DNA of 64,000 nucleotides from Bryoerythrophyllum caledonicum (taxonomy: Eukaryota; Streptophyta; Bryopsida; Pottiales; Pottiaceae): positions 3,827,560-3,891,559 of the forward strand of contig OZ020525.1 in NCBI GenBank assembly GCA_963971425.1, read 5' to 3'. The notes beneath the pieces are model-generated. The model did no database searches. It saw only the letters and a list, made by a program, of their open reading frames with translations, and was not told the DNA's origin. A program made the position numbers and the translations under genes. The stretch's first letter is position 1, and the number at the start of each line of letters is the position of its first letter. This document shows, piece by piece, positions 18,474 to 53,956 of this stretch.

Positions 18474-18849
18474 GGACAAAACAAAGTCCAGAAATAAAAA
18501 CGAGTAAAAAACAAGTCATTGAGAAAAAACTCAGTCGGCGGGCAGCAGAGGCCAAAAGTAATAAAGCAAGAAAAATTCAATCGACAAATCCGATGTTCCA
18601 AAATAACATATACCAGTTGCAAAAAAGAGACGTTTATTGATCAAAACAAATTACAGTGTCGGCTGGCAGCCAACCAAAAAGTGAACATCTCGAAAACTAA
18701 TAAATACAACTTCCTAGAAGAAACCATCCTATAATAAAGTTGAACGGAAACTACTGACACGTACATGAACCCTCAAAATCAAATTATACAACACGAATGC
18801 TCACTTTCATGAACTTTACAAAATGCATCCTTCAAATCACGGACAAAAA

Positions 18850-19566
18850 CTAATTTGAAGACCATCGGCTGGCAGCCGAAGGAGAAGACCTAGTACCATT
18901 TGATTTCATCCCATCGGACAACTGTGCGCCCACACTCACGCGCCTTTGAAACCGCCCAATGAGACTGACCAGATTGATGTGTTTGCTCAAATATTTAGGC
19001 ACACTTGAAAATCTGTGGAGTGGATGGATGAAGGGAAGGATGTCGGTCACCACGTTAGGAATAACATGGTCATTGTCTCGAAGGCTCAAATGACCCTGAA
19101 ACGGCCAGGGAATATAACAAATGTTGTCGGGGTTTTTCCTGAGAGACCTTGGGTTCACATCCACGAACAGAACTTGATGAGGCAGGCAGACAAAACGCGT
19201 ATGATTCTTCTTAGAAAGAATAGACATCGTTTTGTAACTCCCAGGAAAATTTATGCTCTGCGCTAAGTCACGTCTGCTATAGACAAATGACAGCCTATCC
19301 ATAACACCAACCGGAAGAATATGCCGCAAGACAAGTTGTAACTCCTCCATCGGCAACGTTGACCAAAGCGTGACGTTAAAGCAAGGGAGCAACATATCAA
19401 AAAGTTTCTTCTGGCCTGGCTGGCGAACTATATTCTCACGAGTGCAAGAACCAGAAGTTGGCACACGTGGTTTTACAAAGCAAAGGAGCCCATTGACACA
19501 AAGGACAACACACTTTCGATACGGTGAAGGGGTTCCATATAAGCATTTGAAATAAAAGGATGACCC
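18850..19566 (-). CDS. FCP1/NIF-type HAD domain protein, paralogue 4 (terminal exon)
   Basis: The exon starts after a 3' splice site (tattttccag, ending 19567) whose intron carries a palindrome at 19634. It runs uninterrupted to a stop at 18850. The motif YRKCVVLCVNGLLCF aligns with the DLNG catalytic block of plant FCP1/NIF-type phosphatases. FNVTLWS and VLFVDVNPRSLRKNP match the later conserved blocks. Both catalytic aspartates are missing (C-V-N), so phosphatase activity is unlikely. The palindrome at 18865 is translated as part of the C-terminus. The 5' exon was not identified. It is one of four related leftward units. Confidence 0.6.
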   Translation of the reverse strand, partial: GSSFYFKCLYGTPSPYRKCVVLCVNGLLCFVKPRVPTSGSCTRENIVRQPGQKKLFDMLLPCFNVTLWSTLPMEELQLVLRHILPVGVMDRLSFVYSRRDLAQSINFPGSYKTMSILSKKNHTRFVCLPHQVLFVDVNPRSLRKNPDNICYIPWPFQGHLSLRDNDHVIPNVVTDILPFIHPLHRFSSVPKYLSKHINLVSLIGRFQRRVSVGAQLSDGMKSNGTRSSPSAASRWSSN

Positions 19567-19863
19567 CTGGAAAATAAAAAAGAAGACAATCGTCATGATG
19601 CCGAATATTAAGGAAGGATGAAAACACTGTACTGTCGGCTGCCAGCCGTCGAGGCATAACAATGCATATGACAATCATAAGAGATGAAGTACAGACATGT
19701 GATAAAGGCAACACATACACACAGGAAAGCTGGAATTAGAAAATATATCATAAAATCAAAAAAATTAAGAAATTACAAGGAAATGAAGGATCAGTTTCTG
19801 ATTGTCAGTAGCAATAAAGACGAATAGAAACTCGAAAAAGCCCATTCAAGAATAAATGGATAC

Positions 19864-21063
19864 TTAGTTCGAGTAGGTTATTAACAGCTTCGATTCCACT
19901 TCATCGGGACAGTATGGAGCGTCGAAACCCAAGGCGTGGGGATAGATGACCTCCTTGTACTTTTGATGCTGAAACGACCCAGGGTAAAGTCGAGAAGTTC
20001 CAAATTCCCAATTTGCATGGCAGTACTCCTGGACATTGACTCGAGACTTCAAAAGTCCCGAGAGAAAGGGAACTAACGCACTCAATAGATAAGGCTGCAT
20101 CCCGGGAATTGAGATCTCCGAAATATTATACTTAAATAGAGAAGGATGAACAACATTATAGGAGCTATTGAGGATATTTTAGAGAGGAAAGGGATCAACG
20201 AGAAGCGTGTTCCGCTCATTTGCATCAGGCCCGATTAAATAGCGTCTATCAGAAAACATTCGGGCCAACCTCTTCAGCAGCGGTACAGCTGAAGTCAAGG
20301 GATTCTTGGCCGTAGAGGAATCACAGTAGGTAGTGCCCAACACTTTTGTGTTCTTTCGTAAGTCGAGGAAAACATCGAACAAGTGATCCATGTGTCGATG
20401 GATCTCTTTGAAATTATCGGGTGACCAAAAGGCCAACGAAAAGGACGACTAGCAGAAAGCAAGGAACTCTCAAAGCCTAGGCCTAGATTTCTGATAAAAG
20501 CTCTTCCTCTTAGCATTGCCACGACAAACAAAACTTTCGGCGAAGAGAAGCCCCTTTAGTTCAAGGACGAGGTAGTAGCTTGAAGGACCGACCTGAATGT
20601 TCATGTGAACCAAATCGGAGCTGAGGTCGGCAGTTGGAACTGAAGCAGACGAAGGTGTCGGCTGAGAGCCGACGACATTGACACCGATAGGACAAGCACC
20701 ATCCGAAACAAAATCGTCGGTGTCTACCTCCTCGATGTGACAGCGGGTGGAGCCAGAAGCGACAGCTACATTCCCAGGACGCATCGGTGACACGATCTCA
20801 ACTATGACAGCAGGCTTGATTACAACTGCAAGCTCCCCGACATGCTGTAGTGAACATTGGCCAGAATCGATATTAAATCCAAGACCGCTAGCGGCACCAG
20901 GTAATTCTTGATGCTCCAGTCTCTCGTAATCTCCCAATAGTGAGTGAAAGCCACTGAAGCGCGGGGAGATATCCGTCAAGTCAATGTCTCCTGGATCAGT
21001 CGCAACGGCAAATTGGTGCGAAATATCCCCAGGAACTCCGACTTCAAGGAATCAATTTTGCAT
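19864..21063 (-). pseudogene. FCP1/NIF-type HAD domain protein, paralogue 3, with in-frame stops
   Basis: The exon begins after the 3' splice site ttgacttcag and reads in one frame to 19864. It is interrupted by TGA (21052-21054), TGA (20470-20472), TAG (20449-20451) and TAA (20179-20181), with no frameshift. A low-complexity N-terminal part precedes the HAD motif YYLVLELKGLLF; NTLLVDPFP and a C-terminal RLYPGSF block align with the paralogues. The usual catalytic DxD is E-L-K. A palindrome variant at 20657 lies in the coding part. All the stops can arise by single C-to-T changes, although I cannot see the ancestral codons. Confidence 0.7.
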
Positions 21064-21231
21064 CTGAAGTCAATAAAGCAGACATGTATAGATTCACTGA
21101 GGCACCAATCACAAATGATTGTTCAAAAAACAAAAGAGTTTTATTACCAAAAAATTGTATTTACAGCAAGTCAATAAAGGTCTGACAAAATGAACATTCG
21201 AGGGCGTCGGCTGCCAGCCGACGCTACAATC

Positions 21232-21945
21232 CTAAGAGGAAGAAATACTAAGACGCATCGAGCTAGGATAAGCTTCGACGTATTCCGCCCACTTTGGGTC
21301 ATCGGGCCAAAGTCGAGGATATCCGGTCGAATCGATTTTCTCACAAACATACTCAGGAACAGGCAATCCCGATGAAACCAAACCAGAAAGGAACTGAACA
21401 ACACTAGGAAGAATAGCATTCTTCACGGTCTCCTTCGAAGTCAGATCGAACGTCAGGGGATGCATGACATTGAGGGGACTGTTCCGGACATTAGAAAAAT
21501 GACAGCAGTTGAGAAGAAGAGTGTTTAGGCTATTCGCTCCAGTGCCTAACAAGTCGGACGGATGCAAAAACAGAGTAGAAAGCCTTCGAATATATAGAGT
21601 CCGACCGTTGAACGATGTCGTCGCTGTGTCGCAAAAACTGTTGTGGAAACAATGTCTAATTTCTCTAACGATGCCACACTGTCCCTCGAGAGCTATCATT
21701 TGTAATTTCAGAAAAGAGCTGGATTGGTCACTCCAAACTGCCACAGTGAAGTTGGAAACACAGAACTCGAGAAACTCTTTCAGCATCGGCCGAAAGATGG
21801 TATGCCATTTCCTGTCAGCTCCAACACCTTGCGCCATTAAGAGAGCGTTCAAGGATAGGATAAGAAAGTACTTATTGACCTTCTCAGATGGTCCGGTGCG
21901 GAGCGATAAAGACCACTCACTTGCGTCGCCAACTCCAGAGTCAAC
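21232..21945 (-). CDS. FCP1/NIF-type HAD domain protein, paralogue 2 (exon)
   Basis: The exon opens after the 3' splice site tttcttcag at 21946 and stays open for 237 codons to a stop at 21232. KYFLILSLNALLMAQ corresponds to the catalytic block, FTVAVWS to the next block, and NSLNTLLLNCCHFSNVRNSP to the acidic-loop block, which has lost its aspartates. The C-terminal PRLWPDDPKWAEYV aligns with NPRLLPGEPEREQFV of paralogue 1. A palindrome lies about 10 bp after the stop (21206) and another at 22132 in the preceding intron or spacer. The protein is likely non-catalytic; its role is unknown. Confidence 0.65.
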   Translation of the reverse strand, partial: VDSGVGDASEWSLSLRTGPSEKVNKYFLILSLNALLMAQGVGADRKWHTIFRPMLKEFLEFCVSNFTVAVWSDQSSSFLKLQMIALEGQCGIVREIRHCFHNSFCDTATTSFNGRTLYIRRLSTLFLHPSDLLGTGANSLNTLLLNCCHFSNVRNSPLNVMHPLTFDLTSKETVKNAILPSVVQFLSGLVSSGLPVPEYVCEKIDSTGYPRLWPDDPKWAEYVEAYPSSMRLSISSS

Positions 21946-22155
21946 CTGAAGAAATGAATGGATGACGATGCATGAATTAAGAACCCATCAAGTGCATAGG
22001 AAGTTGAGATAATTACAATCGATGTTTATTAGGGGTAAACATTCACACAAAGATAATATCAATGTGCGAACAAAAAATAAAATTCCATAGTCATGACGAA
22101 TGTCATGAAATGAATGTAATGAATTTAAGCGTCGGCTGGCAGCCGACGAATTGAT

Positions 22156-24085
22156 CTAACGTCTACTTGGAAGTGACCTTGGACGCTTCTCCCTTGGAAA
22201 GGACCAAACAAACTGCTCCCGCTCGGGTTCTCCAGGAAGCAATCGAGGGTTCCCCGGGACGGCTACCAACCGAGTCTTATAAGGGTCGACAGGCTTAGGT
22301 TCAAGAAAGGTCACCCTGCGGCCGAGAGGCACATCGGGGACGATGGCAGCATCAGGCAAGACCGTATCCACACTCGCTGAGAGCTCATCGTTCAACTCCG
22401 GATTCGCAACTTGAGGACGAGGACGACGAGGCTTGTCACTTTGAAAGAGCAAGGCGAACTTCTTCACCAAGATAAGGTGGTCCACAGTTGAGGTGTACTC
22501 GGGTACAGTCCAACCCACTTCCTTCATCGCACTCAGAAAGGAAGTTATCACCGAGAGGGCTTGCCTACTCTCTTTGGCAGTCTCAGTTGAAGTGAGAGTG
22601 TAGGGCATCGGATGAATGACGTTACATGGAGAATTCTTGACGTTCGAGTACGGATGAACGTCAATCAAGAGGGTGTTGGCGCTATTGGCTCTTTTCCCTA
22701 TCAAATCCCCATAACTAAGAAATAACGTTGATAGCCTCTTGAGGTAGAATTTCTTGCCATCGATAGAATACCGAGCTACGTCGCAAAGGGTATTATCGAA
22801 GACATGTTTGATTCTTTGAAGAATGAATTTGAACTGATCTTGCAGGTCGTTAAGAAGAGTCCCCACTCCAGTCGGACATTCGGAACTCCAAATCACGACA
22901 GTAAAATTATCAACACAGTACTTGAGAAATTCTTGGGTGTGAGGCCGGAACTTTGTAACACAATCAGCGCCATGCGTGAGAACCAAACCATTCAATTCAA
23001 GTACAAAGAAGTAATCTTTAAGGGGTGTCAAATCCACATGAACCATGTGCTCAAACGCTTCGGATTCTCGATCTGCACCAACCTGCTCCACTGCACCAGA
23101 AGCAGCAAGTACAAGAGTACTAGTCCCCTGATCAGTTGATTTAAAGAAAGACCATTAAAGGACATTAGATCCCTGGTCGGCTGCCAGCCGACGAACCGAC
23201 TCAGAAGATTAGACAAGGTCAGAGAATAATTCAGAAAATCAAACATAAAATTAGTAGTGTACCCCAACACAGAATCATAATGGGTTTATAAATATTTTAG
23301 AAAATTAGTTGCACGCTAGGTCACTAAATTTTGAACCTACAATAAGCTAACTATAAAACTAACCTCTAGATGGATTGCCTGCGCGATCCACGACATGAGA
23401 CAGGGACTCGTTTTGGGAGATCTTCGCCATCGGGGGTCATAGGGGTGTTCGGTCTGGAAGAAGAATTGCTTCATGAACCGCGCTTTGCAGCATAATCCTT
23501 TGTCTTTGTCGATGGAGACGTCGCCCGCTTCTTCCCAGAAGTTTTGCTGGTAGTCTTTCCTTTCTTTGCTTTAGGGCTTCCAAGAGGGACGTCAGTACCC
23601 GTTGAAATTACGGGAACTTCATTCATAGGTCCCAGCGAGACAACTCGAGAATCTCGAGTAATCGATCTTCGGGCAGCAGGGTCCTTTGCGAGATTCGGAG
23701 GATGGACAGTCTTTGCATTAGTACCCGCTACAGATGTGTGGCCAGTCCGGACAACTGTTTCGACTTGCGGTTGCTCGGCCAAATTGATGACCACAGACCC
23801 GGAAGGCATCGCCTCTTCCACTATTGTAGACAAGACAACCAGCATAGTTGACTGAGGTCCTTGGCCGATATGAGTAATCAGATGGTCGAGAGTGGTCTTC
23901 TCTTCATTTAACCCGACATCACAATTAGAAATCTGGTCGTCCGATAAATCATACACATCCAACGAATTCCGTGACATGGATGCTTGGGTAGATTGAACCA
24001 CAAACTCATCCACAACCTTTCGAGCAACATGAGAAAATTCATCGTCTTCCACAACCTTTGGCGGTGTCGCGGAATTCTCTCCAAG
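22156..24085 (-). CDS. FCP1/NIF-type HAD domain protein, paralogue 1, two visible exons
   Basis: The upstream exon (24085 to about 23364) follows the splice site gttatctag. It encodes a low-complexity, basic-ended segment (KAKKGKTTSKTSGKKRA) and meets an in-frame TGA at 23471-23473. The intron 23363-23091 has a GTTAGT donor and a GGTGCAG acceptor and carries the palindrome at 23176. The downstream exon, 23090-22156, holds the best-preserved HAD domain: YFFVLELNGLVL, FTVVIWSSE and NTLLIDVHPYSNVKNSP. Catalytic D-L-N is changed to E-L-N. The TGA and frame at the exon junction suggest decay of the first exon; how the exons join is uncertain. Confidence 0.65.
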
Positions 24086-24099: not shown

Positions 24100-24776
24100 A
24101 TGTCAAATCCGACGGCTGAGGCCAGGTGAGTCGATTAGGAACACCAGACGGCTGCAGGAAAAACGACATGTTCTTAACGCTGTCGAGTTGTAAATTAATA
24201 TATTGTGTGAAAATATTAAAGATGTTGCCTTAGACATCGGATAGAGTATGAGGAGAAGGATACAAAAGGTTGGGGTCGTGGAGAAATCCACGATTTGGTT
24301 CAATGCAGGGATAACCGGAACTTGTTAGCGTAACTTGGAAGCCTGCATCTTGTCACTATAGCTCAGGGAAGCGTAGGCGGCCGGTTGGCTGCTTATTTCC
24401 TGCTTTCACTAGCAAGTACCAAGTTGCAACTATCCAGGCCGTTCAACGAGTTCGATAAAGCTCAAACCCGGAGCCGGCAGGCAACAATCAACGGACCTTG
24501 ACAGCCTACCAAGTCCGCAATTTGGCGACCATTAGTGGACTCAAAGCGGCTTTATACAACTGTTGAGGGACTGTACAATGTCGCGACCTTGTCTTTTAGC
24601 CAGATCTTTTGATGCGGGCTACTTTTAGTTAAAATAGAATTATTTATGGCTATTAGAGTAATTCAGTGAAGGCAAGCTTCTTAAAGAAGTTACTGTAAGA
24701 TATAAAGGGAAGATAATTCCCTTGCCTCACATAATTTACTCCAAGCTAAAATCTTAGATAGCTTAGAGTTGGCAAT
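24100..24776. other. Palindrome-free island, left part, with a possible TATA box
   Basis: There is no gene on either strand. A TATAAA at 24701-24706 lies 71 bp before the ATG at 24777. The island 24.1-26.8 kb lacks the palindrome seen on both sides and may be a further nested insertion whose ends I could not define. Confidence 0.4.
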
Positions 24777-25199
24777 ATGGATTCTCAAGACCCAAATGAG
24801 TGGGAGTTGTCATTATCGCAATTATCGGAGGATCCGTTTCAATCTTCTCAGCCATCAACTTCCAGACGGCGAGTGCGAGATGAAGCGGGGCCTTCCGAGC
24901 GTCGTGTTCAACCATGTCCAGATCCAAGTCTGCGGCAATTTGTATTTGTGAATCTACAACCGGACGCGAGAGCTCTGGTGATTGTATTGGAAGCTGAAGC
25001 TTCATTGACGGGTGGCCGTCAGATGGTGTTTGAAGGATGTTTTGAAAATACCAATGAAGGCCAAATGGTGAGTCGCTTTTCTAATGAGATGGGCCACCGT
25101 CTTTGGCTTTGAGGGCCGCTGACCTATTTAAGCGATGAACGGAGAGCAAGTTATGTTTCTACGGTGCTCCGTCAAATTCTAGAGTTTTTATTCGGTTAG
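24777..25199 (+). pseudogene. Small unrecognised protein gene, interrupted by TGA
   Basis: From the ATG at 24777 the frame runs 111 codons to a TGA at 25110-25112. It then continues openly for 28 codons to the TAG at 25197-25199, giving about 140 residues. The N-terminal 40 residues are polar and Ser/Gln-rich. The rest is more ordered (FVFVNLQPDARALVIVLEAE; TYLSDERRASYVSTVLRQIL), with no motif I know. A TATAAA lies upstream. It is opposite in strand to the neighbouring genes, which supports a separate origin. Confidence 0.5.
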
Positions 25200-25754
25200 A
25201 TAAAGGTATAATCCATTTAATTGTTAATATAGGAGTTTGTTATGTGTTTATGTTTATGTTAGATCAAGATCCAAGAAAGAAAAAGAAAAGAAACTAAGAA
25301 AAGGTTTGACCGTCTTAGAATTCTTTTGGAACCACACTTTTTGAAGCCCAATGGTTGGGGTTTCTTTCCTATCTTATCTTGGTAGACTTTAGAGTGCTTT
25401 AGGAGGTTAACCAATAGGCTTTAGATGCCCATGTGGCTTAGGCATGGGCTGATGTGGAAGGATAAGAGGGGGCGACTCTCCTTTCTTCGTGGTGTGTGTT
25501 TTTGGTGTGTCGAGAGGGGTGAGTGAAATTCCCGAGAGGGAGATCAGACGGTGTGTACTCGTTTTTCATGAGAATGTTATGAAAGTTTGTGGAGTTGTTC
25601 CTTGTAAAGTTGTGCATCTTTGAGCGGTGTTTTTGTTCAATTCGGAATTTTTATGCAAACGTTATGAGCGTTTGAGTGAAAAATAGTTAGCTGCCACCCG
25701 AATAGAGGAGCAGTCACTTCGGGCTTCACCACGGCTTCGATACTTTGTCTTCGG

Positions 25755-26175
25755 ACTTGAAATTTTAGAAAAGAATACCTCATTGTACTAGCTTTTTAAG
25801 AAGCTATCACTTGACTCATTTAAATGCGCTATGAAAAAGTTATAGCCATCTAAGTAGAGGAGAGTTTTGCCGTCTTGGAAGTGGGCAGGCGTGAGTTTTG
25901 AGCTTATACAACTTTTAGTGAGTAGATTAGTTTAAAGTGAAATTTATAAAAGCTGTAGCTTATTAAATTAGCTTTCTATAAAGCTATTATACAACTCATT
26001 TAGAATCGTAGTATAGAAGTTATAGCCACCGAAGTTGGAGAGGGTTTGCTGCCATCGACATAAGAAGGCACAAACTTTGAACCTCCATAACTTTTAGAAG
26101 GTAGTTTAGAATAATCTGAGATTTTGAAGGGTGTTAGCTTATTGCACCAACTTTCCAAAAAATTATAGCACTTGG
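25755..26175 (+). repeat. Degenerate tandem repeat, about three units of 150-175 bp
   Basis: Units start near 25764, 25914 and 26091 at cttttag... and share 'agctt..ttaa..aagctat', 'aactcattta' and 'agttatagcc'. Further right, purine-rich 'gaagacttgaagataagaag' repeats occur at 26270-26350 and 26690-26745. The function is unknown; they may be part of an LTR-like or untranslated region. Confidence 0.6.
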
Positions 26176-26798
26176 CATTTGGCTGCTCGAACCATCTGTG
26201 GCATCAATCTAAAGCTCGCAATTAGTGTGGTAAAGAACTTTGGGAGGTCTTTTGTGTTTTTGAACACTTCAAGACTTGAAGATAAGAAGATTTGAAGAAT
26301 TGAAGAATGAAGACATGAAGACTTGAAGATAAGAAGACAAGAAGACTCACGTGTTGTGGCTTGTGGCTTTATTATTCCTAGCCGGCTTTGGAGGCTCGTT
26401 ATCTTTATTTGTTATTCCCAGCCGGTTTTGGAGGCTAGTTGTTTTTCAATTCTGCTTCGTAAACTTTGTTGCGGCGAAGTGGGGTTAATGGCCCACACGG
26501 TCGTATTTAAGTTGTTTCCACCGATGAGGCGCGATTGCTGGTCACCGTGGATTTGAAGTATAGGAGCCAATCTTTTGGACGGTCAACTCGTGGTTTGGCC
26601 GTCCCATTTTACCCGTCTGAGGCCGTGGTTTCTTATCACCTATCTTTACCCTTAACCCTTTACAGCCACCACAAGATAGGCCAACGGAGAGAAGAATGAA
26701 GAATGAAGACTAAAGACTTGAAGACAAGAGGATTTGGTGGTCAAGACTAAAGATTTATTTGGAGACAACCTTTGTTCTCAAACCATTTCTAGCAGCAG

Positions 26799-29775
26799 CT
26801 AGGATCTCCGCAATTTCCCAAAGAAAAACTCTCGCTTCTGGACAACGTGCTTCTTCGCGATAGCAATGCCAACTTCCTCGCGCACAAACTTAATCACAGT
26901 TGCTTTTGCCCGCTGAGAAAAATTACGAGAAGATAAGTTAGAAACCCGCTGCAAAAAACTGTCGGCTGCAAGCCGACGAGATGCAATGACATGAATCGGT
27001 AAATGCAGGACAAAAAAAAAGCAAACACGACAAGGATTAAAGAAACCAACCAAGGCCAAAGCTGTGACATTCCCACCACCCCAAGCATTGAAGACTGTCA
27101 GGTTTGATTCCTTCACCGCTAAGGTGGGACTCAATATTGCGGTGAGCAAACTCATGCATGGATTGCTCACATCTCTACACCAGCTCTCGGTCGCGGGCAA
27201 AGCAGCATCGTCATAGATAGGATTAAGAGGCTTCGTCAATCCCGTCACCTTCTTGAACTGGCTGAATCTTTCACGCTCATCACTCGGTTTGTTGTAGAGG
27301 ATTCCGATGTTAGCCAGAGGTCTGTCGTGCATGGCCGACACCTTGAACTTTTGGCTACTTTCAGGGAGGTAGCGAATTGTGTGGAAGGCACATACTCCTG
27401 TCAAACTGCGATATTCCGACTCAATTTGGAAACTGGAGTTGTCGTCGGTAATAAGAATTATAGGAGCAAAAATCTCAGACTGTTCATCATCACTCACTCG
27501 CAGCACCCTCTGCACAACTGTTTTGAGCCCGTCTCTCCCTGTAAAGATTGATTCCCCGGCTTTGTCATATCCAAACACAACGAACATCTCGCGAGCTCCC
27601 TTCTCGAGTTGCACGTCTCCTTTGTCGTTGATCTTCTTCACCAGTTCGACAAGCCCCTTCGCAACACGAACATCAAAGCGAATGACAAACTCATCAACCA
27701 GATCCTCATCACATAGAACGGCGTACTTCTTCACTACCGACCAGAACTCGGGCGGGGCCTCGTTGGTCGTTGGAGTAATCCCGTTGTTCCTCTCCTTCAA
27801 GAATGTTGTGCCAGCATCAGACTGCTCCAATTCGCGTCGGATGTTATCAAGGGTTTCATTGTTGATACCCTTCTCAGCGGCAAACAACGTAAATTGCTCA
27901 TACGCCCAAGGGACATATGCGGACTCTCCAGGCTTCTTCAATGGATAATTGCGGTACTTCAGCATCAATTCGTTCTTGATGATGTAGTTCATCTTTACAT
28001 CCTTTACCCACGACTTCATCGACACACCAATAGCCCCCTTCTCCTTTCCTGCGTTCACCTTAATATACACCTTCTTATCCAGAATCGCCTCATCTAGCTT
28101 CATGGAGTCCTCATCACGTAGGTTGACGAGGTACGAAAGGTCCGTGTGCGTGATGTCCCGCTGTGGAATTCGTGGAATCTGAAGAGGAGGTTGACCGTTC
28201 TTCCCAATTAATTGACCCATCTGCCAAGCGGTGAAAACCACTTGCCACTTATTGTAGAAATCATCAGGAACGAAAACAAGCGGTAGCTTCTGGGTCTCCA
28301 CGTCTTTAGCCTTACTCATAATGACAGTGAGGTGATTCTTGCAAAAATCCTGCAACAATCACAATGAATAGAATCAGGTTTCAACACATGTAAGGCCGTC
28401 GGCTGCCAGCCGACGGTCAGATACACTGAAGCCACACAATACGATTAGCATGAACAAACAAGTGAGCAGTAAAAGTACCTTCCAGGCAGCATGGTCTTGA
28501 AGCTTGTCAACACGACCAAGCTCAATCCACCTCTCCCTCATTCTACGAAGTTGGGGAACGTAGGTCTCTTCCGCTTTCTTCTCGGCAACATCAACGTTCA
28601 GGAGGTTTGAAATTTTCACGAGGTCGTCTTGAGTATTTGACCAGAGTATGATAATGTCCCACTCCATGAAATACTTAGCTCTCGACGATTCGGGGTCCTC
28701 CATCTCTCCGAGCTCCTTACACACAGAGTATGTGTGCTGCCCACCAATGATGAACCAATGACAATTTGGTTCTTCATACCACTTGTACGTCTGACCGCCG
28801 AAATGAACTTGGTCCTCCATCATTTTGGGCACGCTCCTACGAAGAAGTTCCATACCCTTTAACTCCTTGCCATCTTGAGCAGAACCTGGTGGAGCACGGA
28901 GAGGAACGCAGTATAGTGGCGGTTTTGCCCGCCAAGGACCAATAACTTTGTAGGTGACCCGAAGCTGGTCGAGGCGCCTTTCGACGAGTTCACGGTAAAC
29001 CATTCCATGGGGCGCAAGGTGGATCTTTGACGAATGAATCTTTACTGGCAGAACCTGCTGCCCAAACGGATAACAATGCCCTAATCCTTTCTCGACCGTG
29101 TTGTACATCTCTTCGACCTCCTAACTGTTGGTATTGGATGAGAGGTTGTTCAGACATACCAGCGCTTCGGCCACCGTCTTCTCCTTCGTAGTTTTCTTAG
29201 ACGCCCACTTCTTTGGAGCCGGATCAGGTGCCACAGCAATAACAGTGAGCACAGAACTGCTAGCCTTTTTTGAGGCCCTAGGTTTCTTTGCAGCTTTACG
29301 TCTGCCATTCTCCTCAAATCCGCCATTGAGTGCCACTCTCTGGTCCTTCGCCTGCATAAAGCATTCCACCAATTCCGCGCGGCTCTCTGGGTGCACGTCG
29401 GTAAATTGCATGCCCACCTCCTGTGCTGACGTGCAGAGCTCCTGTGACCAGAGGGCCCAACGAATTTGAACAGCATATGACTCCGGGTCGTCGTCGGCTA
29501 CTCGAACCTTCACCTTTAGTAGGAGTCAAATACATTCGTCGTCCTCAAGATCTTCCATAATATCCATCACGGCGACAAGGTTTCCACCAAAAAAACTCTT
29601 GCCCAAGTGCTTTCCGTTGATTCCCATTTCAGTCACCTCTCCTAGCTTCCAGGTAATGCCCCAATTGGTCAATTCAGGACGAGCCTCGAATGTGGCATTC
29701 GGTACCTGATTATCGAGCCAGACTGCCTCGTCCTCACTAATACAAGGCCCAAACAACCACTTCAGCTTACTCAAC
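26799..29775 (-). pseudogene. ParB-like domain protein, three visible exons, two in-frame stops
   Basis: Exons run 29775-28479, 28349-27051 and 26912-26799. The two introns are 129 and 138 bp, have GT...AG ends, and each holds one palindrome (28398, 26961). The first exon has TGA at 29526-29528 and TAG at 29121-29123 in an otherwise single frame. The part after the TAG shows QVLPVKIHSSKIHLAP, ELVERRLDQL and CHWFIIGGQHTYSVCKEL, resembling the ParB/sulfiredoxin-like nuclease fold (a GGQHT in place of the usual GQHR box). The C-terminal half is about 450 residues with no motif I recognise. An intron further 5' (after 29775) carries two more palindromes. The ParB relation is a weak motif-level call. 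Confidence 0.6.
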
Positions 29776-34167: not shown

Positions 34168-34174
34168 TAGGGTT

Positions 34175-39136: not shown

Positions 39137-39243
39137 TTGTACCATTACAAACAAAAAGGATATTTAAAACCATATAATGTTTAGAGCAAAATTATTGTTC
39201 ACAAAATTGATTTGCTACGTCCCAAACCTTTAAATACTCCTAG

Positions 39244-41330: not shown

Positions 41331-41349
41331 AAAGACATCAATCACGACA

Positions 41350-43355: not shown

Positions 43356-43713
43356 TTACTTCGTTGCGTTTGACGAATGGGACGTCATACAACACTTGGT
43401 AAACTTCGATGCATCGGTTTTTAAACGCCTCGTCGATGCAATGTTTCAAGTTTGCCTTGTGGAAGCGCCGGTGATAGTTGTGTCGCGCCTCTGGGAAAGC
43501 CTTGTCGATGTGGCACCACTCGATGTAGTTCGCGCAATCATCAAAACTCCATGGCTCCACTACGTCCTCCCAACCTCGAAAAGCCAACTTCTCGGGATTT
43601 CGAAGAACGTGCAACCGCTTCCGATGGGCGTTCCCCGCTCTTGCACGGGTCTTGTCACGCTCCTCCTTGGCCAATTGTCCGGATGAAGACATGGTGTGCA
43701 CGTGTGAATGCAA
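43356..43713 (-). pseudogene. Truncated RING-gene paralogue, N-terminal part
   Basis: About 118 codons align closely with the N-terminus of the 47430 gene: RKRLHVLRNPEKLAFRGWED, CANYIEWCHIDKAFPEARHN and KNRCIEVYQVLYDVPFVKRN. The frame runs into the CACTA terminus at 43355. GACGTC palindromes lie upstream at 43842-43952, as for the intact gene. The domain itself is not one I can name. Confidence 0.88.
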
Positions 43714-43841
43714 AATTCTGGCGTGGATGGATGAATGAGACCTCGCACAATGCCCACATCCAGCTCAATGAAGAGATGGTGGATAGGAGTATGCGAGGTG
43801 GGGACAAATGAGGTCCCCCTCCATTAAAATAGTAATCCGGT

Positions 43842-43952
43842 GGGGGCGGAGACGTCCCCGCCCCTGCCTCGGTAGGGGCGGAGACGTCCCCGCCCCTGCC
43901 CGGGTATGGGGCGGAGACGTCTCCGCCTCACCAGGGCAGGGCGGGGACGTTT
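43842..43952. repeat. GACGTC palindrome cluster 3 (paralogue promoter)
   Basis: Four copies of ggggcggagacgtccccgcc or close variants lie about 130-240 bp upstream of the paralogue's start codon. Confidence 0.88.
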
Positions 43953-45144: not shown

Positions 45145-47430
45145 CTAGTCAATATTCATCGGGCTATTAGTAGTGCCACTCGCCCCTGCCTCGTTGTCGT
45201 GTGCCCCTACGTGCATAGGGAGGTCTTCATCTGAGCCCAATACAAGTCTACGAGACGCCGATCGTGTTCTCCTCGCTGGTCCATCTTCATCCAACACGGC
45301 CCTTAGGATTTGGGATTGCATGAGCTGGTCGAGCGCTTGCCGTGTCCCTAGACTGTGCACATCGAGCAAGAAGTCGATTCCGTCATTTCGGAAAATTTCT
45401 TTCCACTCTGATTCCGATAATTGTCTTAATTCTTGCGGGTCTGGTTGGTCAACGTCGTGAGAAATGCGATCCCCGTTGTCGTCTGTGATGCGAACTCCGT
45501 CAACGGCCCACAACCATTGCCGTGGATGAGGTCCGAAACGAAATTGCTCCTCGTTCTCGTCCCAATGGCCATTAAAGCATTGGTAGAAGAAATTTCATTT
45601 TCCTTGACCGTATTTGTCCTTTAACGGGATCAAATTCTTGCACACCCAGACAATCTGCTCCGGGTCCCTTTCCCAACCCCACTCGTTTGAGAGGTGCATC
45701 TTATCCAACGAGTGCATCTTCAGTTTTCAGCTCCACACCAAATCCTTTCCCCACATATGTGATTGATCATGAGCGTTCGTCACATTGAACTCCCAATGCG
45801 GGGGCATGTATGGAACTAATCCAAAAAGTTCGTACAATCGCTCGTGAAAAGGGGCCTTGCACAATGAGCACCGCCGGCGTACAACCATCAAGCTAATCAA
45901 ACAAAATGGATGGTACAAGTGCTCACAAGTGCCTAGATGCATCCCACCTTCTGGACCAAATGGGTTTAGACAAATTGAGCAAGTCGTACGGTCGGATACG
46001 AAGCTCGAAGGTTGTGGCCACAATAACATGGGTTTGCCCCGATGATCGAGGGTAGATGAAACCTCCTTTTTGAAATCCCATTTGTAACGGGACCAATCGA
46101 TGGTTGTTTGCCTACCAGCGGTTTTCACCATCGCCACTTCATCCATCTTGAAAAGATCATCTACAAGGGCCCACGATGTCAAACCAAACACCCTCTCTTG
46201 GTTGTTTTCGGTATAGTTGTTGTTGATTTTTTGGAATTCCGCCACCAATTGTCGGGACTGATCGACCGTGAAGACGCATGCCAACTTCCATTGATAGTAA
46301 TGTTCTACCAACACATCCAAGCGACTTTGTAGTCTTGAATTCTCTTCAAGCGCTCTAGCGAGCTCTTTGTCGCCGTCACCCCCCGCACCCTCTTCTTTGT
46401 TGACCATAGCTTTGTCTGCGTTGGTAGGGGCCTCATCAAACGACAATGAATCGTCTTGGGCTGACACGTGTACAAGCACTTCTTCCTCCCGTCGTGGATT
46501 CCGATCTTCTGTAGTCATTGTACTAGTTTGAAGGGCAAGTCGGAGCTCCTCCATATCACGTCGTTGCTGGTCAATAACAATGTTTTTATCATTGACTTCA
46601 ACTCTCAACTTGCGAACCTCATCGCGCAATGACAATAGTTCTGTTGTCTTCCCTTCCAATTGGTTCAGCAAGGTTTGGATAGTGTTGGCAAAAATAGCAC
46701 CAGTAGAGGCTTCTAACGTTCGATCAACAACCGTGGGGGATTGTACCTGAGCCCCAACTTCATTAATGGTATTGTTAACGACTACGTTAACCGTTTGTTC
46801 CGCCCTCCTTTGTTTGGTGCGCGCTTGTGTCCTTTGGCTCCTTGTGATTGGAACATGGGATCTGTCAGAGTCTGTATCCGTGTTTGAGGGATCGGTCTCG
46901 TACGTGTCGACAGGTTCAGTCTTCACCATCGATTTGCCCAATCCGCCTTCTGGATACCTCCGTGTCCCCATTGGAATCAATCCATTCGCCGGAGAAGGAA
47001 CTCTTATGCTATCTCCCATGGCTTTCAAGGTGGACCAATCCACCCTCTTGCCCAACTTTACCTCCGCATGGACACCTCGCACAAGGAAGAGATTTACTTC
47101 GTTGCGTTTGATATAAGGGATGTCGTACAAGACCTGGTATACTTCAATGCACCGATTTTTGAACGCCTTGTCGGTGCACTTCCATAAATTTGCCTTGTGA
47201 AAGCGTCGGTGATAATTGTGTCGCTCCTCCGGGAAAGCCTTGTCGATATGGCACCACTCGATGAAGTTTGCGCAATCCTCGAAACTCCATGGCTCCGGCA
47301 CTTCTTCCCAACCTTTAAAAGCCAATTTAACAGGATTCCGAAGCACATGCAACCTCTTCCGCTGCTTGTTTCCCGATCGTAGTCGACTCTTGTCTCGTTC
47401 TTCTATATTCATTTTTTCCGGCGTGGCCAT
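45145..47430 (-). CDS. hAT-borne RING-finger protein with coiled coil
   Basis: The frame opens at 47430 and runs 567 codons to TGA 45727-45729. It continues in the same frame through a second TGA (45595-45597) to a stop at 45145. Residues about 1-170 are the domain shared with the truncated paralogue. A heptad-rich segment lies about 260-310 (LRDEVRKLRVEVNDKNI). A C3HC4-type RING lies about 500-545 (CSICLNPF, CEHLYHPFC, CSLC), which suggests a ubiquitin E3 ligase. The stretch beyond the TGAs is ordered and acidic at its end, so the original protein was probably about 760 residues. A GACGTC cluster lies about 180-290 bp upstream, shared with the divergent kinase-like gene. Confidence 0.8.
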
Positions 47431-47934
47431 GGGTGGGGAAAATCTGAATATTATATGTGATGCGAATGGATGAAGTCCTCACACGACGCCCACAACCAAC
47501 TCAATTAAGAGGTGGATGAAGAGGGAGTATGTGAGGCGGGGACAATTAGGGGTGTGCACGATATTATATAGCTGATAGACGAAGCACTGGTCTAGGGTCC
47601 CCGGGCAGGGGCGGGGACGTCTCCGCCCCTGCCCGTATGGGGCGGGAACGTCTCCGCGCCACCTCGGGCAGGGACGGAGACGTCCCCGCCCTGCCTAGGT
47701 AGGGCGGGGACGTCTTCGCAAGAGGAACCCTACACCATATAAATAGGGGACATTTTGTCCTTATTTTCTGCCAAGTCCACTCCCTAGGCCTCACGTGTCA
47801 GTTTGCTTCGCGGCCTGAAAGTGAGTTTGGTGGGTGATCGGGCTTGGCCCATTTATTGTACCCAGACTCTTTGCGGTTTTTTTTAAAACCATCAACTTGG
47901 AATTTCGACCACGGTAGGGAGTTGACAATCACAT
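47431..47934. promoter_or_regulatory. Bidirectional promoter with GACGTC palindrome cluster 4
   Basis: This 500-bp region separates the leftward RING gene from the rightward kinase-like gene. It holds about four gcggggacgtctccgcc-type palindromes at 47607-47718. TATA-like accatataaatagg lies at about 47735-47748, just left of the kinase-like gene. Confidence 0.65.
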
Positions 47935-49483
47935 ATGGCGGGAGAAGGAAGTAGGTCAATGGAGAAGCGCCCAATATTTATGGACTTGGATGATGTTGAT
48001 GAGACGGTTCTTCCGTCCACCAACACGGAGTTGACTTCGGGATCATTGAATCCGTCGTCTTCGAGCGGGAAGAGGCGGAAGAAGTCACCAAATCCGGATA
48101 TGCCCCCGCACGAATACATGGTTGAATGTAGAGGGATTGCCGTCGAGTTTTACAAGCGTCGGACGACAGGGGCGTTGACGAGGAGCTATCTGAACCACAA
48201 CGAAGAGGGATACCACAAGTTGACGGTTGACATGCGACACGAATTAATGTCAAACCTTGATAAATCTGAGAAATTTAATAATTTCTCAGATTATTGGTTG
48301 CATTCGGAGTGGTTGGACACACAAGTGACCGCATGACCACCAATATCGTTGCGAACTGGTGTTACGTCACAGGGAAGAAGGAGGATGAGAGCACCTGGAA
48401 CCTGGAGGAGCGCGCACTAGTGGCGAAGATGAGGATGATCCAGGGCTTCGTTCAACAGTACTCTTCTTCCCGTAAGAAGAAACTAGCTCCTTGGAAAGCG
48501 ACTATTGAGGAGCAAATTTTGGCTCACTGCGTTGGTGGAACTTTCAAGTGGCTTGAAAGTTGCGCTAAGGTGATTCCAATGCGAGGACAGAAAGCGGTGG
48601 GTGGCTATGGGGCTGTACGGAGGTGATGATAACCAAATTGGAAAACATTCCAAGTTGGATTTACTTCGCCGGAAAGACTCTGACTAACACCAACGAGAGG
48701 GAGAAGCGCCGAGACATCATCAACGAGGCTGGAGGGTGTCCGGTAGTGCATCCAGGGATCATTAGACTTGCGTACATCGACCCGAAAACTATGGAAGAGT
48801 ACACGCTTTGGTGGAATGGGGGATCTCTCCAGAGTTTTTGGTTCAAGTTTGACTCGAAAGTGGACGAAGCATTGCCGTTTGAACGGATTGAGATGCATCC
48901 AAATACCGGGTTGTTGATCCAAGAGCTTCGGTGGATAAAAGCTTACCGCCAAAATCGAGTGAACCTCGCACTATTGTTGCTTGTCATTGTGGAGAAATGC
49001 CATGACGCTAATTATATACAAAATGACATCTCTCCATCGAATGTTTTGCTCCACTTTGATGAGTGGAAACCCGATACGGTGTACATCGAAATTTGAGATT
49101 GGGGGCTTTCTAGTCGGGTTGTGGAGAATGAGCCATTAAGGTATGGTTATCAATTCAAGGACGAGCTTCAACAAGAGAGAGAGCGGCGACGGTTTGTGGC
49201 ACCAGAACTGTTCTATAATTTTGGGCCGCAGGACTCCACCAACTCGCTTGAAGTCATGCAACGGTCACACCTCTACTCCAAGGCAGCAGATGCATTTGCG
49301 GTGGGTTGGATTTGTGAAAATTTTTGGAAAGAAGATTGGGACACTTCGTATTTCACCAGCGAAAACACGGAGCAATATGTAAACCTGAAGCTAAAACTTA
49401 CAGCGTTGCAAAAACAACTACTCGAAGAACGATCTTCTGTACCAGATGTTTTAGACACATTAATGAAACCCCCCCACAACTGA
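47935..49483 (+). pseudogene. hAT-borne protein kinase-like gene
   Basis: The start codon at 47935 opens an acidic N-terminus followed by a basic SSGKRRKKSP stretch. The frame shifts near 48310 and again near 48590, then reads through a kinase C-lobe. NYIQNDISPSNVLLHFD matches the catalytic loop (Asp and Asn kept). DWGLSS replaces DFG, and RRFVAPELFYNFG is the APE segment, followed by YSKAADAFAVGWICE. An in-frame TGA (49094-49096) lies just before DWG. No clear glycine-rich loop is seen. Its position within the hAT ends and its shared promoter indicate that it moves with the element. Confidence 0.7.
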
Positions 49484-49926
49484 ACTATGCCTCTATGTTG
49501 TTACCGACAATAGTTTTTTGTTAATTAGCTGCATTAGTTTCGCATGTGGTGGTTAAATAGGCAATACGGCATCTTCGTAGAAGAATATGTGTAATTGGCA
49601 ATTGCCATTCGTTATATTTTAATCAAAATTGGATACGTCCAAATCTTAAATTCTAAATCCGAGATTTGCATTTGTTCAAGCACAAATAACAATTGATACA
49701 CTATTGATACACTAAATGTGCACAAGTGAAAGAAATAAATTTATTATTTCTACAAAAATTGATACATAGTGTAGTAAATGGCATTTAGTGTCCGGTTATG
49801 TCACTACACTAAGTGCCTCATTGGTCATTGGTGTATGGGTTCACATTTAGTGTATACTACAGTAAACATAAATTTTAGTTTAACAACATAGTGTCAATAG
49901 TTAAACACTATTAACTAACTCATGAA
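49484..49926. other. Non-coding, AT-rich, with a small inverted repeat
   Basis: Sequences like gatacactaaatgtg (about 49703) and its inverse (about 49840-49856) form a loose inverted repeat. I see no gene. Confidence 0.4.
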
Positions 49927-49980
49927 GGGGCGGAGACGTCCCCGCCCCCACACGGGCAGGGGCGGAGACGTCTCCGCCCC
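49927..49980. repeat. GACGTC palindrome cluster 5 (right subterminal)
   Basis: Two copies of ggggcggagacgtccccgcc type. It mirrors cluster 1 near the left end of the hAT. Confidence 0.88.
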
Positions 49981-50114
49981 ACCTCCCTCTTGTCATTAGT
50001 CCCCGATCCTACTCAAACATGACCCTCTCCTACGTGGCAGCTATGTGGTGCCAACATGGCTGCCACGTTGCCTATTTTTTACCTAGTGGGTAAGTCAACC
50101 CTCAGTTGACTTAC

Positions 50115-50176
50115 CCGGACGGGCAAATCGGACGGACGGGCAAATCGGACGGACGGGCGTACCGAACGTCCGTCCA
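50115..50176. repeat. Right subterminal CGGACGG repeats of the hAT element
   Basis: Tandem cggacgggcaaat units and further gtccg copies lie within 75 bp of the right terminus, matching the left-end set. Confidence 0.78.
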
Positions 50177-50190
50177 GTATGACAATCCTG

Positions 50191-51704
50191 CTCGGAAGCT
50201 GTATCTCCAACTTGATAACTCTGCAAAGGATAACAAGAACAGGTTCGTCATGGCCTTCTGTTCGCTTCTCACAGCCAGACGAATTTTTAAGGAAGTGACT
50301 ATGGGATTCTTGATTGTCGGCCACACTCATGAGGATATTGATGCGCATTTTAGTTACCTTTCAAAATTCATCAAACGGAAAAAAATTTACTGCTTAGCTG
50401 ACCTCATGAAATCTTTCATGGACTCTCAGAAGACAGTAGCCTTTATTCGTGAACTTGTTCAAGAGGTTGCTGATTTCAAAAGTTACATTGCTGATTACCA
50501 TCACGAAGGCAAGAATAAGCTTGTTGGTCTTGGTGAGATGCACCTTTTCAAATTTTACGTTGAAGAGGAAGGTGAAGATGCGGGATGGCCGGTCATGAGA
50601 TACAAGAGAAGTGCGACGGATTCATCATGGCTCCCTCCAGATGAGGCTCATTTGTTTTTCATCATCGTTTTGTTTGCATTCATTTTCTGCCGATTTTCTT
50701 GTTACTTATTTGTCGGCTGCCAGCCGACGGATTTTACCTCTGTGCTTCTTTTGTCCTTCTTTCCTTCCATTTCATTGCTTTCTTGTTTTTGTCTAACTTT
50801 TTTGTATATTGCATTCAGATAAGCCTGTGAAGATGTGGACGGCGGATCAATTCGGGAATCCTAACCTTCCGATTGGTGATCCAAAACCAGTACCCTTCAA
50901 GCCGCTTTGGGGTGACGTTCATGTCAACGAATCGAAGCGAAACAAGGAGAAGGAGGTTGCAAGAGCCACTGGAAACTGCGAAAAACAATCCTTTATCAAG
51001 AACGGTATTGCAAAGTATATTGAGTTCTGGAGGACGGGCATGGCTCGAGACAAACGATATGCCGCGGATATGGAACCTTTCATTGATTATTGGGAGCGTC
51101 TTTTACAACTTATATCTGGTCCTCTCCCTCCAAACCCCGACTGTCTGCAAGAAGGATTCTGGCCAAAATCGGACTAGATGCGTGATCATGCTCGCGCAAC
51201 GTCACTGCCGGATGCAATTATTTTTGGCTTGGATGTCACACCAGAAGATGAACCCGACGCTTACCCTTTCTGCGGCCTCGAGATGAGCCGTTCGAAATTA
51301 TCCTTCAATCCGTTTCGTGATGTTCTTCTTGGTGATTTTGTACTCTGCCGACCTTGCACTGGGCATTACCTTCCTGTGTGGATGGGCCGGGTACTGAAGT
51401 GCGTCAACCACAGTCCTCAGGATTCCTACGGTAACTTTAAGGTTGAATGGTGGGTTCCACTCACGACCAAGAAAGATTCTAAGAAGATCATCGGGAAGGA
51501 GTGCTAGAATAGGGGGTGGGAGCGTGAGCAAAGGGATCCAGATGTTCAGAACTACAGTATCGTTCTCTTCTCGCATCGCTACCCATCTCATAATAAGCGT
51601 ACTGGAGTGCGTCCAAAGATCCACCGTATCCCACCTGAAGCAGCGAGCGCTGCAATGGCTTGTTTGGAGGCAGGTCGCATCGTTGTTCATGGCAGTAGCG
51701 AATG
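50191..51704 (+). pseudogene. DUF7869-type protein gene, part after the hAT insertion
   Basis: It resumes the frame left at 34167. LYLQLDNSAKDNKNR and VTMGFLIVGHTHEDIDAHFS are the strongest DUF7869 signatures; I infer that their D/N/H residues form part of a catalytic core. LVGLGEMHLFKFYV follows. The intron 50641-50819 ends in a normal acceptor and carries palindrome 50712, but its donor reads ATGAGG where GTGAGG would be expected. The next exon has TAG at 51175-51177 and 51505-51507 and ends at TGA 51702-51704, with palindrome 51719 just beyond. It is a candidate transposase of the palindrome element, now dead. Confidence 0.72.
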
Positions 51705-52210
51705 ATTGCATTTTCTTAGTCGGCTGCCAGCTGACGGGTTGATGTTCTCTGCAATGTAATTCGTTCATCATATATTAATTTGAATGCTGCCTGGAACAGT
51801 AGTATTTGCCGATCCTTCCGCCATTGATACATTTTTCAAGTAACTCATCTGACATGATCTCAGTCTGAGTAGTTGGTGTTATTCTTGTCGGCTGCCAAGC
51901 GACAGCCTCTGTATTTTGCATATGCAGTTTGATCCATTTTTTGTGGTCAAAGTCTTCGCGCGTGTGAAGGAAAGACTGAAATCTGTGGCACGTGTATTGC
52001 TCGGTATCATAATGACGAGTAGATAGGTAGTTGTACATGAGTAATTATTGTTGGTGCGCAATTTGCGGCAAGTGAATTATAAATTCACGGATTCACTGTA
52101 TGTGAAGTATCTCATTGTGTTCAGTTGTTTTTGTGTATCTTGGTTTTTATTTGCTACAGGTTGGAGTGATTTCTTCTTTACTTAGTCTGATTCTGTTTCC
52201 AGCCGACGAC
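51705..52210. other. Intron or spacer with two palindromes
   Basis: Palindrome variants lie at 51719 and 51887 and a half site at 52200. A 3' splice site (ctgtttccag) at 52202 precedes the acidic gene, so this is probably an intron. Confidence 0.45.
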
Positions 52211-52645
52211 ATGGTTGAGACTCGTAGTATGGCGCTTGTCAGGAGAGCGAGAGAGGAAAGGGAGGAGAACGAGGCAAATGAGGCCAGAGTTGCCAGGGAG
52301 GCAGAGTCTCAGAATAGTATAGTGTCTGTAAACTCTGTGGATAGCACTGTTCCGTCGAGTGACGTTCATGAGGAGAATTGGAACAAGGAAGATGACGAAG
52401 AGGAGTCCAACAACGATGTCGATTCAGACGACGATGGCGGTCAGCATGTCGATGCACAGTTGGGATGCTCTGATGAAGATGACCTCCACTGCAATGGATC
52501 GGACGAGGTGGACTTGTGGGTTACCGAAGACTTTGACAGCGATTCGTTTTCAAGCTTTTCGGGTAATCCATTTGAAACCGGATGCGACACCGGTTCGGAC
52601 GTGGACTCCAATATGTACGCTCCTGCATGGCGCAAGAACTGGTAG
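52211..52645 (+). CDS. Acidic protein (C-terminal exon or separate gene)
   Basis: 145 codons are open from the ATG at 52211 to TAG 52643-52645. The protein starts METRSMALV-like after one Met-Val and has a charged helix-prone segment (RRAREEREENEANEARVARE). It then becomes strongly Asp/Glu-rich (NKEDDEEESNNDVDSDDDGG). It lies just after a 3' splice site, so it may be the last exon of the DUF7869 gene. There is no known domain; acidic tails often bind chromatin or basic partners, which is only a guess. Confidence 0.55.
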   Translation: MVETRSMALVRRAREEREENEANEARVAREAESQNSIVSVNSVDSTVPSSDVHEENWNKEDDEEESNNDVDSDDDGGQHVDAQLGCSDEDDLHCNGSDEVDLWVTEDFDSDSFSSFSGNPFETGCDTGSDVDSNMYAPAWRKNW

Positions 52646-53956
52646 ATGTAAAGTGTAGTTCAGCTTGTAAATAGTCCCCTGCAGTTGCTTTTCTCTAATC
52701 GATTTTCCAGACTGCTGCCATCTATGGGGCACCTCCAAATGTAACATTCATTTTGACTAAAATATCGTGCTCTATTCGGATCTTATCCTTGATGTACTTC
52801 ATTTTAGTCAAGCTTGTTTTTACCTTTTTGTTTTGATGTTGTGCTTGGTAGAATGTTGTGTGTCATATGACTTCAACAGACTTTTGTCCGTGTATTGTCT
52901 TCTGTCTTCTGTCAATGTGTTGTCTTCTACAGTAATTTTGTTATCAATGTATTCTCTTGATGGTCGTTTATGGATGTTCAATATTTTACGTGCTGCCAAT
53001 TGGCAGTCATCTTTTTATGAAACCCACTTCCTCTTCTTTGTTTCTGTCTTCAGATTGATCACCTATATTACTTTATCCACTTCGCCGGACTTTTTTGATA
53101 ATTTGTTTTTTTCACAACATTCTGTTGACAGGATTTCATTCTTTTTCATTGAAGTTCTTGTCGGCTGCCATCCGACAACCTTTTTTTATTTTGAGTTTGG
53201 AGATCATCTGTTTGCCCTACTTACTCGGGCCCTTACTCTCTTAGTATTTCCCTAATTTTTCAGAAGATCATTCTGCCATCTGCTACTATTTTTGCGAGCT
53301 GCCTACCGGGAGCCTTCTTTGTTTGTAGTCCACTAAAGTCTCTGTTGTCCGTCAGCTGCCGGCTGACGTCTGTACTCGTAGGACAAACCACGTTCTTCAT
53401 TTTCATGTTGACCACCTCTCATTGCTTCATATTTTTGGTTTAATTTCCAAATAATCACCTTATTTTTCATCCCATTTTTTGAATAAATTGTTTGATCATT
53501 GGAGTTTTTTTACTCACCTTTTTTAATCATGAGATTTCTTCTATAAATATATTCGGTGATTCTGATTCCTCCTCTTTCTTTGTCGGTTGGCCCCCGACCT
53601 TTAATTCTGTCTTCAAGAATCCTTAGGGCATATGGAGATTCTTTAGGGTTCAAGGGAAATATTTAGGGTCTGGGAGAATATTTAGGATCTACGGAGAATC
53701 TGTAGGTTTTTGGAGAATCTTTAGATTTTGTGGATTAACAGCCAACACTTAAAGTTAAGGATTCTAGTGGTTTTGAAGAGACTTTATTATGATATGAGAC
53801 AGTTATTATAGTTTTGTGTGGGACAATGTTTGGTGGAACGCAATTTTGAATGTATATGCTTAGGATTTAGCCTATATTTTCTTGTTTTTTTGTATGATAT
53901 AGGAAATGAAATCCGAGTCTAAGTTTTTTTTTGGTTCAAAATTGATCGATTTGTCC
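52646..53956. other. Right subterminal region of the palindrome element
   Basis: This T-rich DNA has palindromes at 53160, 53351 and 53582. At 53610-53730 about six copies of a 'ggagaatctttagg' type word occur. It mirrors the left end, which has palindromes at 18534, 18658 and 18865. No gene is supported. Confidence 0.6.

Follow-up and report, generated by a model that had tools for sequence, protein, structure and literature searches.

The window analysed here is a 64,000-nucleotide stretch of contig OZ020525.1 (positions 3,827,560 to 3,891,559, assembly GCA_963971425.1), and is marked by a giant transposon carrying many units of one short palindrome. The block is a genuine multicopy cut-and-paste transposon, the ends of which had been misread in a first-pass annotation made from the window letters only. 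It is interpreted, with moderate confidence, as a Sola-1-type element bounded by terminal inverted repeats, the palindromes of which would be bound by a dimeric protein encoded by the element itself. Its boundaries in the window are as follows (coordinates are those of the window).

18449..18452, left 4-bp target duplication, GAAA
18453..53977, no strand assigned, whole element, 35,525 bp including two nested insertions, about 16.8 kb once these are removed
18453..18480, + strand, left terminal inverted repeat, canonical form AACGGATATTTAACTAAATATGGACAAA
53950..53977, - strand, right terminal inverted repeat
53978..53981, right 4-bp target duplication, GAAA

The ends have been set by comparison with sister copies. 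Seven copies on contig C1 were inspected, comparing six left and four right ends, and 20 further left ends were added. In sister ends AACGGATATTTAAC, or a sequence close to it, opens the conserved stretch, upstream of the boundary first proposed; the coordinates 18474..53956 are corrected to 18453 and 53977. AA is the start in 19 of the 20 further left ends, and flank similarity ends at the repeat start. The terminal inverted repeat measures 28 bp (AACGGATATTTAACTAAATATGGACAAA) and is found also at the ends of other copies, the right ends of sister copies being its inverted version. The motif GGACAAAWC, formerly viewed as the inverted end, is internal to the repeat. Because ATATTTAACTAAATAT is nearly identical to its own reverse complement, inverted copies mimic a direct repeat conserved at 14 of 16 positions, which had been mistaken for a 16-bp target duplication. 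Target duplications are instead exactly 4 bp long in 13 of 16 paired ends (the window plus 15 pairs picked by orientation and spacing among the ends listed, about 100 of 413); they measure 5 bp in two, and match at 3 of 4 bases in one. Duplications of 4 bp were also recognized by eye in copies B, D and E, in one copy of a second family, and in three whole miniature elements (both described below). The block splits an open reading frame (ORF), as had been proposed. Collapsing GAAA to one copy rejoins ...RHIEK and DMPEFLPLCFMTDD... in frame (by eye), and the frame earlier drawn across TKY/VKY is a coincidence.

Ends with up to 2 mismatches mark the 437-Mb genome searched at 413 places (200 + 213), with none in the control. 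Among the ends listed, at least seven perfect pairs are spaced 16.6–16.8 kb, others 14.8 kb or >20 kb. Matches to the DUF7869 gene of the element, 77–100% identical, number at least 150 (150 scored of 2966 candidates). Many listed ends and DUF7869 matches reside in contig C1 (65 Mb, the longest contig seen). Two nested insertions enlarge the window copy.

about 24181..26843, no strand assigned, second nested insertion, about 2.66 kb, not found in 7 of 7 sister copies
34168..50190, no strand assigned, nested hAT (domains: DUF659, hAT dimerisation), flanked by the duplication CTCGGAAG at 34160-34167 and 50191-50198

The hAT, correctly recognized as nested in the block from the outset, measures 16,023 bp, features an 8-bp duplication and sits in frame within the DUF7869 gene. 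The block without hAT was first sized at about 19.5 kb; removal of the second insertion as well leaves about 16.8 kb, a size shared by several sister copies. Large size and several genes might also be expected of an integrated virus, or of a plasmid-like element. This identity is most improbable, as it is at odds with 4-bp duplications, inverted ends and miniature copies. Capsid or viral polymerase domains are absent from the ORFs scanned, and the candidate was rejected after a pattern scan of viral contigs, in which 159 stretches were retrieved and none encoded a relative.

The presence of a private palindrome family in a giant DNA transposon has been found to be better supported than claimed, since the element is multicopy and the evidence extends to a second family, miniatures and a distant relative. 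The palindrome measures 17 bp and is odd, being made by two 8-bp half-sites around one C/G. Sites with up to 2 mismatches are 17 in the element, 0 in the hAT and 0 in the flanks; 100 Markov simulations gave 0 in each. Exact sites are 428 genome-wide, and 0 in the control. Sites of the window copy are listed below.

18658..18674, palindrome site
18864..18880, palindrome site
19634..19650, palindrome site
20657..20673, palindrome site, inside the reading frame of HAD 2
21206..21222, palindrome site
22131..22147, palindrome site
23176..23192, palindrome site
26961..26977, palindrome site, lying in an intron predicted for the ParB-like gene
28398..28414, palindrome site, also in a predicted ParB-like intron
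29829..29995, three palindrome sites (starts 29829, 29859, 29979), between two divergent gene blocks
31523..31539, palindrome site
32390..32406, palindrome site
33408..33424, palindrome site, 3 mismatches in the window copy, in the first predicted DUF7869 intron
50712..50728, palindrome site, in the second predicted DUF7869 intron
51719..51735, palindrome site
51887..51903, palindrome site
53160..53176, palindrome site
53351..53367, palindrome site, 3 mismatches in the window copy

Palindromes are retained in miniature elements of about 330 bp, identified in three 3-kb loci (L001-L003), the first places listed among exact palindrome matches. Miniatures have related ends and two palindromes each, at distances of 64 and 47 bp from the element ends; of the four elements, one is cut by the edge of L003. 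The L001 element and one of the L003 elements share flanks, and may be one insertion. Since the 330-bp miniatures keep two sites, a role in transposition is suggested. Palindromes may accordingly be viewed as cis-acting sites for transposition, to which the transposase itself would bind as in CACTA subterminal repeats, with no role in silencing. The conservation of palindromes in miniatures, which are made by little but ends, and their presence near both ends of the large element fit this explanation. It is nevertheless doubtful, as most sites reside deep inside the 16.8 kb, in introns and spacers and at conserved places, and are unnecessary there for end recognition.

In Physcomitrium and Ceratodon relatives, peptides such as VGGPPT hinted at G-C in place of the inner T-A. 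A G-C palindrome pattern was therefore predicted, and then searched in the genome. The predicted sequence was found at 197 exact places (control 0), the general palindrome form at 1313 (control 3). One second-palindrome place was fetched, and revealed a second family collinear to the first, 67–75% identical in most aligned blocks, the DNA between which is unaligned. For 20 of 23 family-1 sites, counted with 4 mismatches at most, a family-2 counterpart lies no more than 100 bp from the place given by interpolation (mean 6.0 and maximum 15 in 2000 random placements); the 23 sites correspond to 18 distinct family-2 sites, and some anchor blocks start at the palindrome, which favours small offsets. 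Inner GG-S-CC residues are found at 9/23, 5/14 and 9/21 sites in three family-2 copies, which feature TG-S-CA at 1/23, 1/14 and 0/21 sites. TG-S-CA marks 14 of 21, 12 of 22, 13 of at least 20, 14 of 21, and 13 of 17 sites in five family-1 copies, and GG-S-CC is found at none of the sites listed for these copies. According to the inner-base counts of both families, specificity has changed across most sites, often in both arms.

Changes in both arms fit RNA hairpins as well, which would reside in introns or untranslated regions and aid splicing or shield transcripts, and one site was found in each of the four predicted introns examined. Hairpins are an unlikely explanation, because palindromes are kept in miniatures devoid of these genes, and sites occur also between divergent gene blocks and within coding frames. 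When six of the seven family-1 copies are pooled, palindromes vary between copies no less than the flanking DNA, as might a passive internal repeat without function, homogenised by gene conversion or slippage. That the palindromes are such a repeat is quite improbable: silent sites between the families are near saturation (dS 1.1 to 3.0 where computable), yet 20 of 23 positions persist, palindromy outlasts sequence change, and an unrelated palindrome is found in a distant relative.

Genes are arranged on both strands of the element. The DUF7869 gene is oriented rightward; a gene called 'ParB-like' and four FCP1/NIF-like HAD genes are oriented leftward (exons and introns were predicted by eye).

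18850..19674, - strand, FCP1/NIF-like HAD protein 1, first catalytic Asp lost
19880..21051, - strand, FCP1/NIF-like HAD protein 2, broken in the window copy, Pfam match only in copy D
21232..21987, - strand, FCP1/NIF-like HAD protein 3, first catalytic Asp lost
22156..23154, - strand, FCP1/NIF-like HAD protein 4, first catalytic Asp lost
about 26799..29640, - strand, 'ParB-like' gene with GGQHT motif, predicted to have several exons; in the window copy a stop lies near its start
about 31560..51500, + strand, DUF7869 gene, encoding a candidate DDE/D transposase, split by the hAT, with a frameshift near 33065 in the window copy
52211..52645, + strand, acidic protein ORF

The DUF7869 assignment holds, as the protein matches Pfam PF25273 (E=7.6e-36). 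The best named relatives are encoded by mosses (Physcomitrium patens, 64% identity; Ceratodon purpureus, 59 and 66%), and the host is therefore probably a moss. In an alignment of 39 homologues D428 and D554 are invariant, and D596 is found in at least 90% of the proteins. The invariant residues lie in the contexts HDKMD and LQLDN, the near-invariant one in GHTHEDID. DDE/D cut-and-paste transposases are marked by three conserved acidic residues on an RNase-H fold. The three residues are a plausible DDE/D triad, and DUF7869 is likely a transposase, to which the alignment would assign a cut-and-paste DDE/D chemistry. Pfam detected DUF7869 in 39/39 homologues and a Sola family in none; Transposase_23 was weakly matched in 2/39 (best E 0.023). 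A search of PDB by sequence returned nothing useful, and no paper naming DUF7869 was found in the open literature. In the window copy the DUF7869 gene is damaged by the hAT and by a frameshift, the ParB-like gene by a stop near its start, and HAD 2 by breaks. Longer open frames are found in other copies, some of which have stops of their own.

Catalytic HAD proteins are marked by the motif DxDx[TV], used here as yardstick for the loss of Asp residues. Three HAD ORFs in the window match PF03031, the fourth only via sister copy D (E=1.1e-4). The first catalytic Asp is lost in 8/8 sequences of the two families, the second in 7/8 (by eye), and the early description of four dead FCP1-like HAD proteins can be maintained. 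No homologues of HAD 4 were found at E<=0.001. The dN/dS ratios between the two families are 0.08–0.16 for DUF7869, 0.19 for the ParB-like protein, and 0.13–0.43 for the HADs. Ratios could be computed in 13 of 17 aligned pieces, dS being saturated in the rest, and are <1 in 13/13; with dS of 1.1–3.0 the values are rough, and some HAD pieces may pair paralogues. Because between-family dN/dS is below 1, dead HADs and the ParB-like protein appear to be kept by selection. HTH_36 is weakly matched (E 0.0084, below cut-off) in the exon next to the ParB-like motif.

We propose that the element is moved by the DUF7869 protein, with a 4-bp target duplication, and that the approximately 20 dispersed odd palindromes may be binding sites for an element-encoded dimeric DNA-binding protein. 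The most plausible binder would be the conserved 'ParB-like' protein, encoded by the strand opposite to the transposase. Sites tile the element about every kilobase, introns and central gene spacer included, and the protein would in this way mark the DNA of the element. Marking may protect against host silencing, the role of VANC proteins in VANDAL elements, or assist transposition, or both. Protein specificity and sites would coevolve, which is why each family would feature its own palindrome. Few cases of transposon self-recognition and escape from host silencing are known. Here one genome hosts two families whose roughly 20 sites are set apart by a defined change of the inner base pair, and this makes specificity, cross-talk, and a role in anti-silencing or transposition directly testable. 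DUF7869, an uncharacterised Pfam domain, would gain a function if the proposal is true.

Target duplications of Sola1 elements are 4 bp long, as are those at 13 of the 16 paired ends of the moss element. The latter probably represents a variant of an already known type, that of giant Sola-1 elements, to whose transposase its own would be akin. Duplications of 4 bp are reported for Sola2 (PMC3627910), and a 'Physcomitrella Sola1' is listed in PMC9033089. Sola1-1_Ec32 of Ectocarpus measures 21.5 kb and encodes, opposite to the transposase, a protein combining ParB-like and DNA-methyltransferase features; the authors suggest that the transposon encoding such proteins may be bound and modified by them (PMC12477816). 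Very large size, accessory genes, a putative ParB-like gene opposite to the transposase and a moss host are points of likeness (PMC12477816, PMC9033089); the opposite-strand accessory gene of the moss element features the GGQHT motif, and has no Pfam ParB match. Ectocarpus is already known to host giant Sola-1 elements, among which one has a ParB-like accessory gene (PMC12477816), and the claim that the block represents a new class is therefore doubtful. Dead FCP1-like HAD proteins are found in the moss element, and none is mentioned for the Ectocarpus Sola-1 in the accessible portion of the paper; palindromes also set the moss element apart, as the term 'palindrom' gives 0 matches in the same paper (PMC12477816). 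No description of such a palindrome-carrying element was found in the open literature. If the moss element is of the same kind as the Ectocarpus Sola-1, the target sites of its proteins are now visible.

KDZ and EnSpm elements resemble the moss element in being giant multi-gene transposons with terminal inverted repeats. EnSpm/CACTA elements feature CACTR ends and 2–4-bp duplications; the moss element ends with AACGG, and only its 4-bp duplication would fit. Bacterial ParB/parS systems include a protein and several palindromic sites on one replicon. The association of protein and palindromes is alike, but the moss element is a eukaryotic transposon, ParB homology is not confirmed, and no ParA was found in the ORFs scanned. 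Duplications measure 8 bp in Zisupton (KDZ), differently from the moss element, and 3 bp in the EnSpm families covered by the same paper (PMC12730594). No KDZ or EnSpm Pfam family over cut-off was found in moss-element proteins. In Arabidopsis, VANDAL elements (MuDR) encode VANC anti-silencing proteins, and motif and protein coevolve (PMC5735166). Both VANDALs and the moss element carry short family-specific non-coding motifs, located also in introns and differing between families (PMC5735166). VANDAL motifs, however, are 9 bp long, non-palindromic and often arranged in tandem arrays, whereas moss palindromes are mostly single and dispersed (PMC5735166). The VANDAL transposase is of the MuDR type, and is replaced by DUF7869 in the moss element. 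Demethylation by the element-encoded protein is a further VANDAL trait.

Prokaryote-labelled genomes were searched for DUF7869. Among 92 matching stretches only one relative was found. This contig, L071 (4.3 kb), was assigned to a cyanobacterial bin, and its DUF7869 protein shares 46% identity with P0014. The contig seems to be eukaryotic DNA placed in the wrong bin, and bacterial kinship of DUF7869 was discarded. L071 has an odd palindrome of its own, TTTAGCTCGASTCGAGCTAAA, found within 5 mismatches at 7 sites, 7/7 outside the coding region (200 simulations gave 0). The palindrome was found within 2 mismatches in two more contigs of the same bin, L072 and L073, chosen by palindrome and not by gene content. 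C-G replaces T-A in 8/8 sites on each of the two; in L071, T-A is found in 5/6. The ParB-like protein could be aligned with a protein of L073, its only kin found (25% over 130 amino acids; BLASTP E=1e-6, single comparison), and L072 encodes a NIF-type HAD (E=2.4e-14). Thus 3/3 palindrome-bearing contigs encode one of the gene types of the element, DUF7869 being found only on L071, and the three contigs may be pieces of related elements. A second protein, acidic and perhaps coiled-coil, is common to L072 (3003-4223) and L073 (4467-5723), with the shared stretch SLDKDDFVVNGYPVDA. A broader view, which we advance only tentatively, is that a clade of giant eukaryotic transposons, ranging from mosses to a distant soil organism, has a self-recognition code made by DUF7869, a GQH/ParB-like protein, dead HADs and a coevolving tiled palindrome, and that families residing in one nucleus would not cross-react.

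Several observations weigh against the interpretation of the element as a Sola-1-type transposon bound by its own protein. The label 'ParB-like', inherited from the first-pass annotation, was not confirmed: it corresponds to a short motif, no Pfam family over cut-off and no ParB in PDB were matched, and no homologue at E<=0.001 was found among 7999 scored candidates. The Ectocarpus protein has a DNA methyltransferase domain, and Pfam detected none in the moss-element pieces scanned. Family-2 sites changed in one arm only are 9/23, 5/14 and 7/21 in the three copies. Within family 1, palindromes are less conserved than flanks (0.886 vs 0.933, six copies), perhaps because of CpG decay in dead copies; in copy C values are 0.896 vs 0.866. 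An unbiased scan for odd palindromes detected 36 in the window flanks vs a simulated mean of 14.2, an excess that includes no large family of one sequence. The same type of scan revealed no excess in L071 (4; mean 2.1 and maximum 4 in simulations). In the distant organism, the HAD protein still has the first Asp, and only the second is missing. In one second-family copy the space available is too short for the acidic gene (0.6 kb vs 2.4 kb). The split ORF had been labelled Mutator, and this was not confirmed, as no Pfam family was found in three flanking ORFs scanned, a set that does not include the stretch directly left of the insertion.

Further features of the window were noted. An ORF at 2518-3549 (- strand) encodes a Tc1-like transposase, matching Pfam HTH_Tnp_Tc3_2 and DDE_3, and a second Tc1-like transposase ORF was recognized by reading at 12804-13307 (- strand). 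ORFs that we take to be gag-pol-like, followed by a stretch presumably resembling C5 DNA methyltransferases behind a retrotransposon protease, span 59665-63116. Inside the hAT, an ORF at 45727-47478, perhaps a hAT accessory gene, has a weak RING-finger match below cut-off, and several inverted GGGGCGGRGACGTCYCCGCCCC blocks are repeated between 34344 and 49980.

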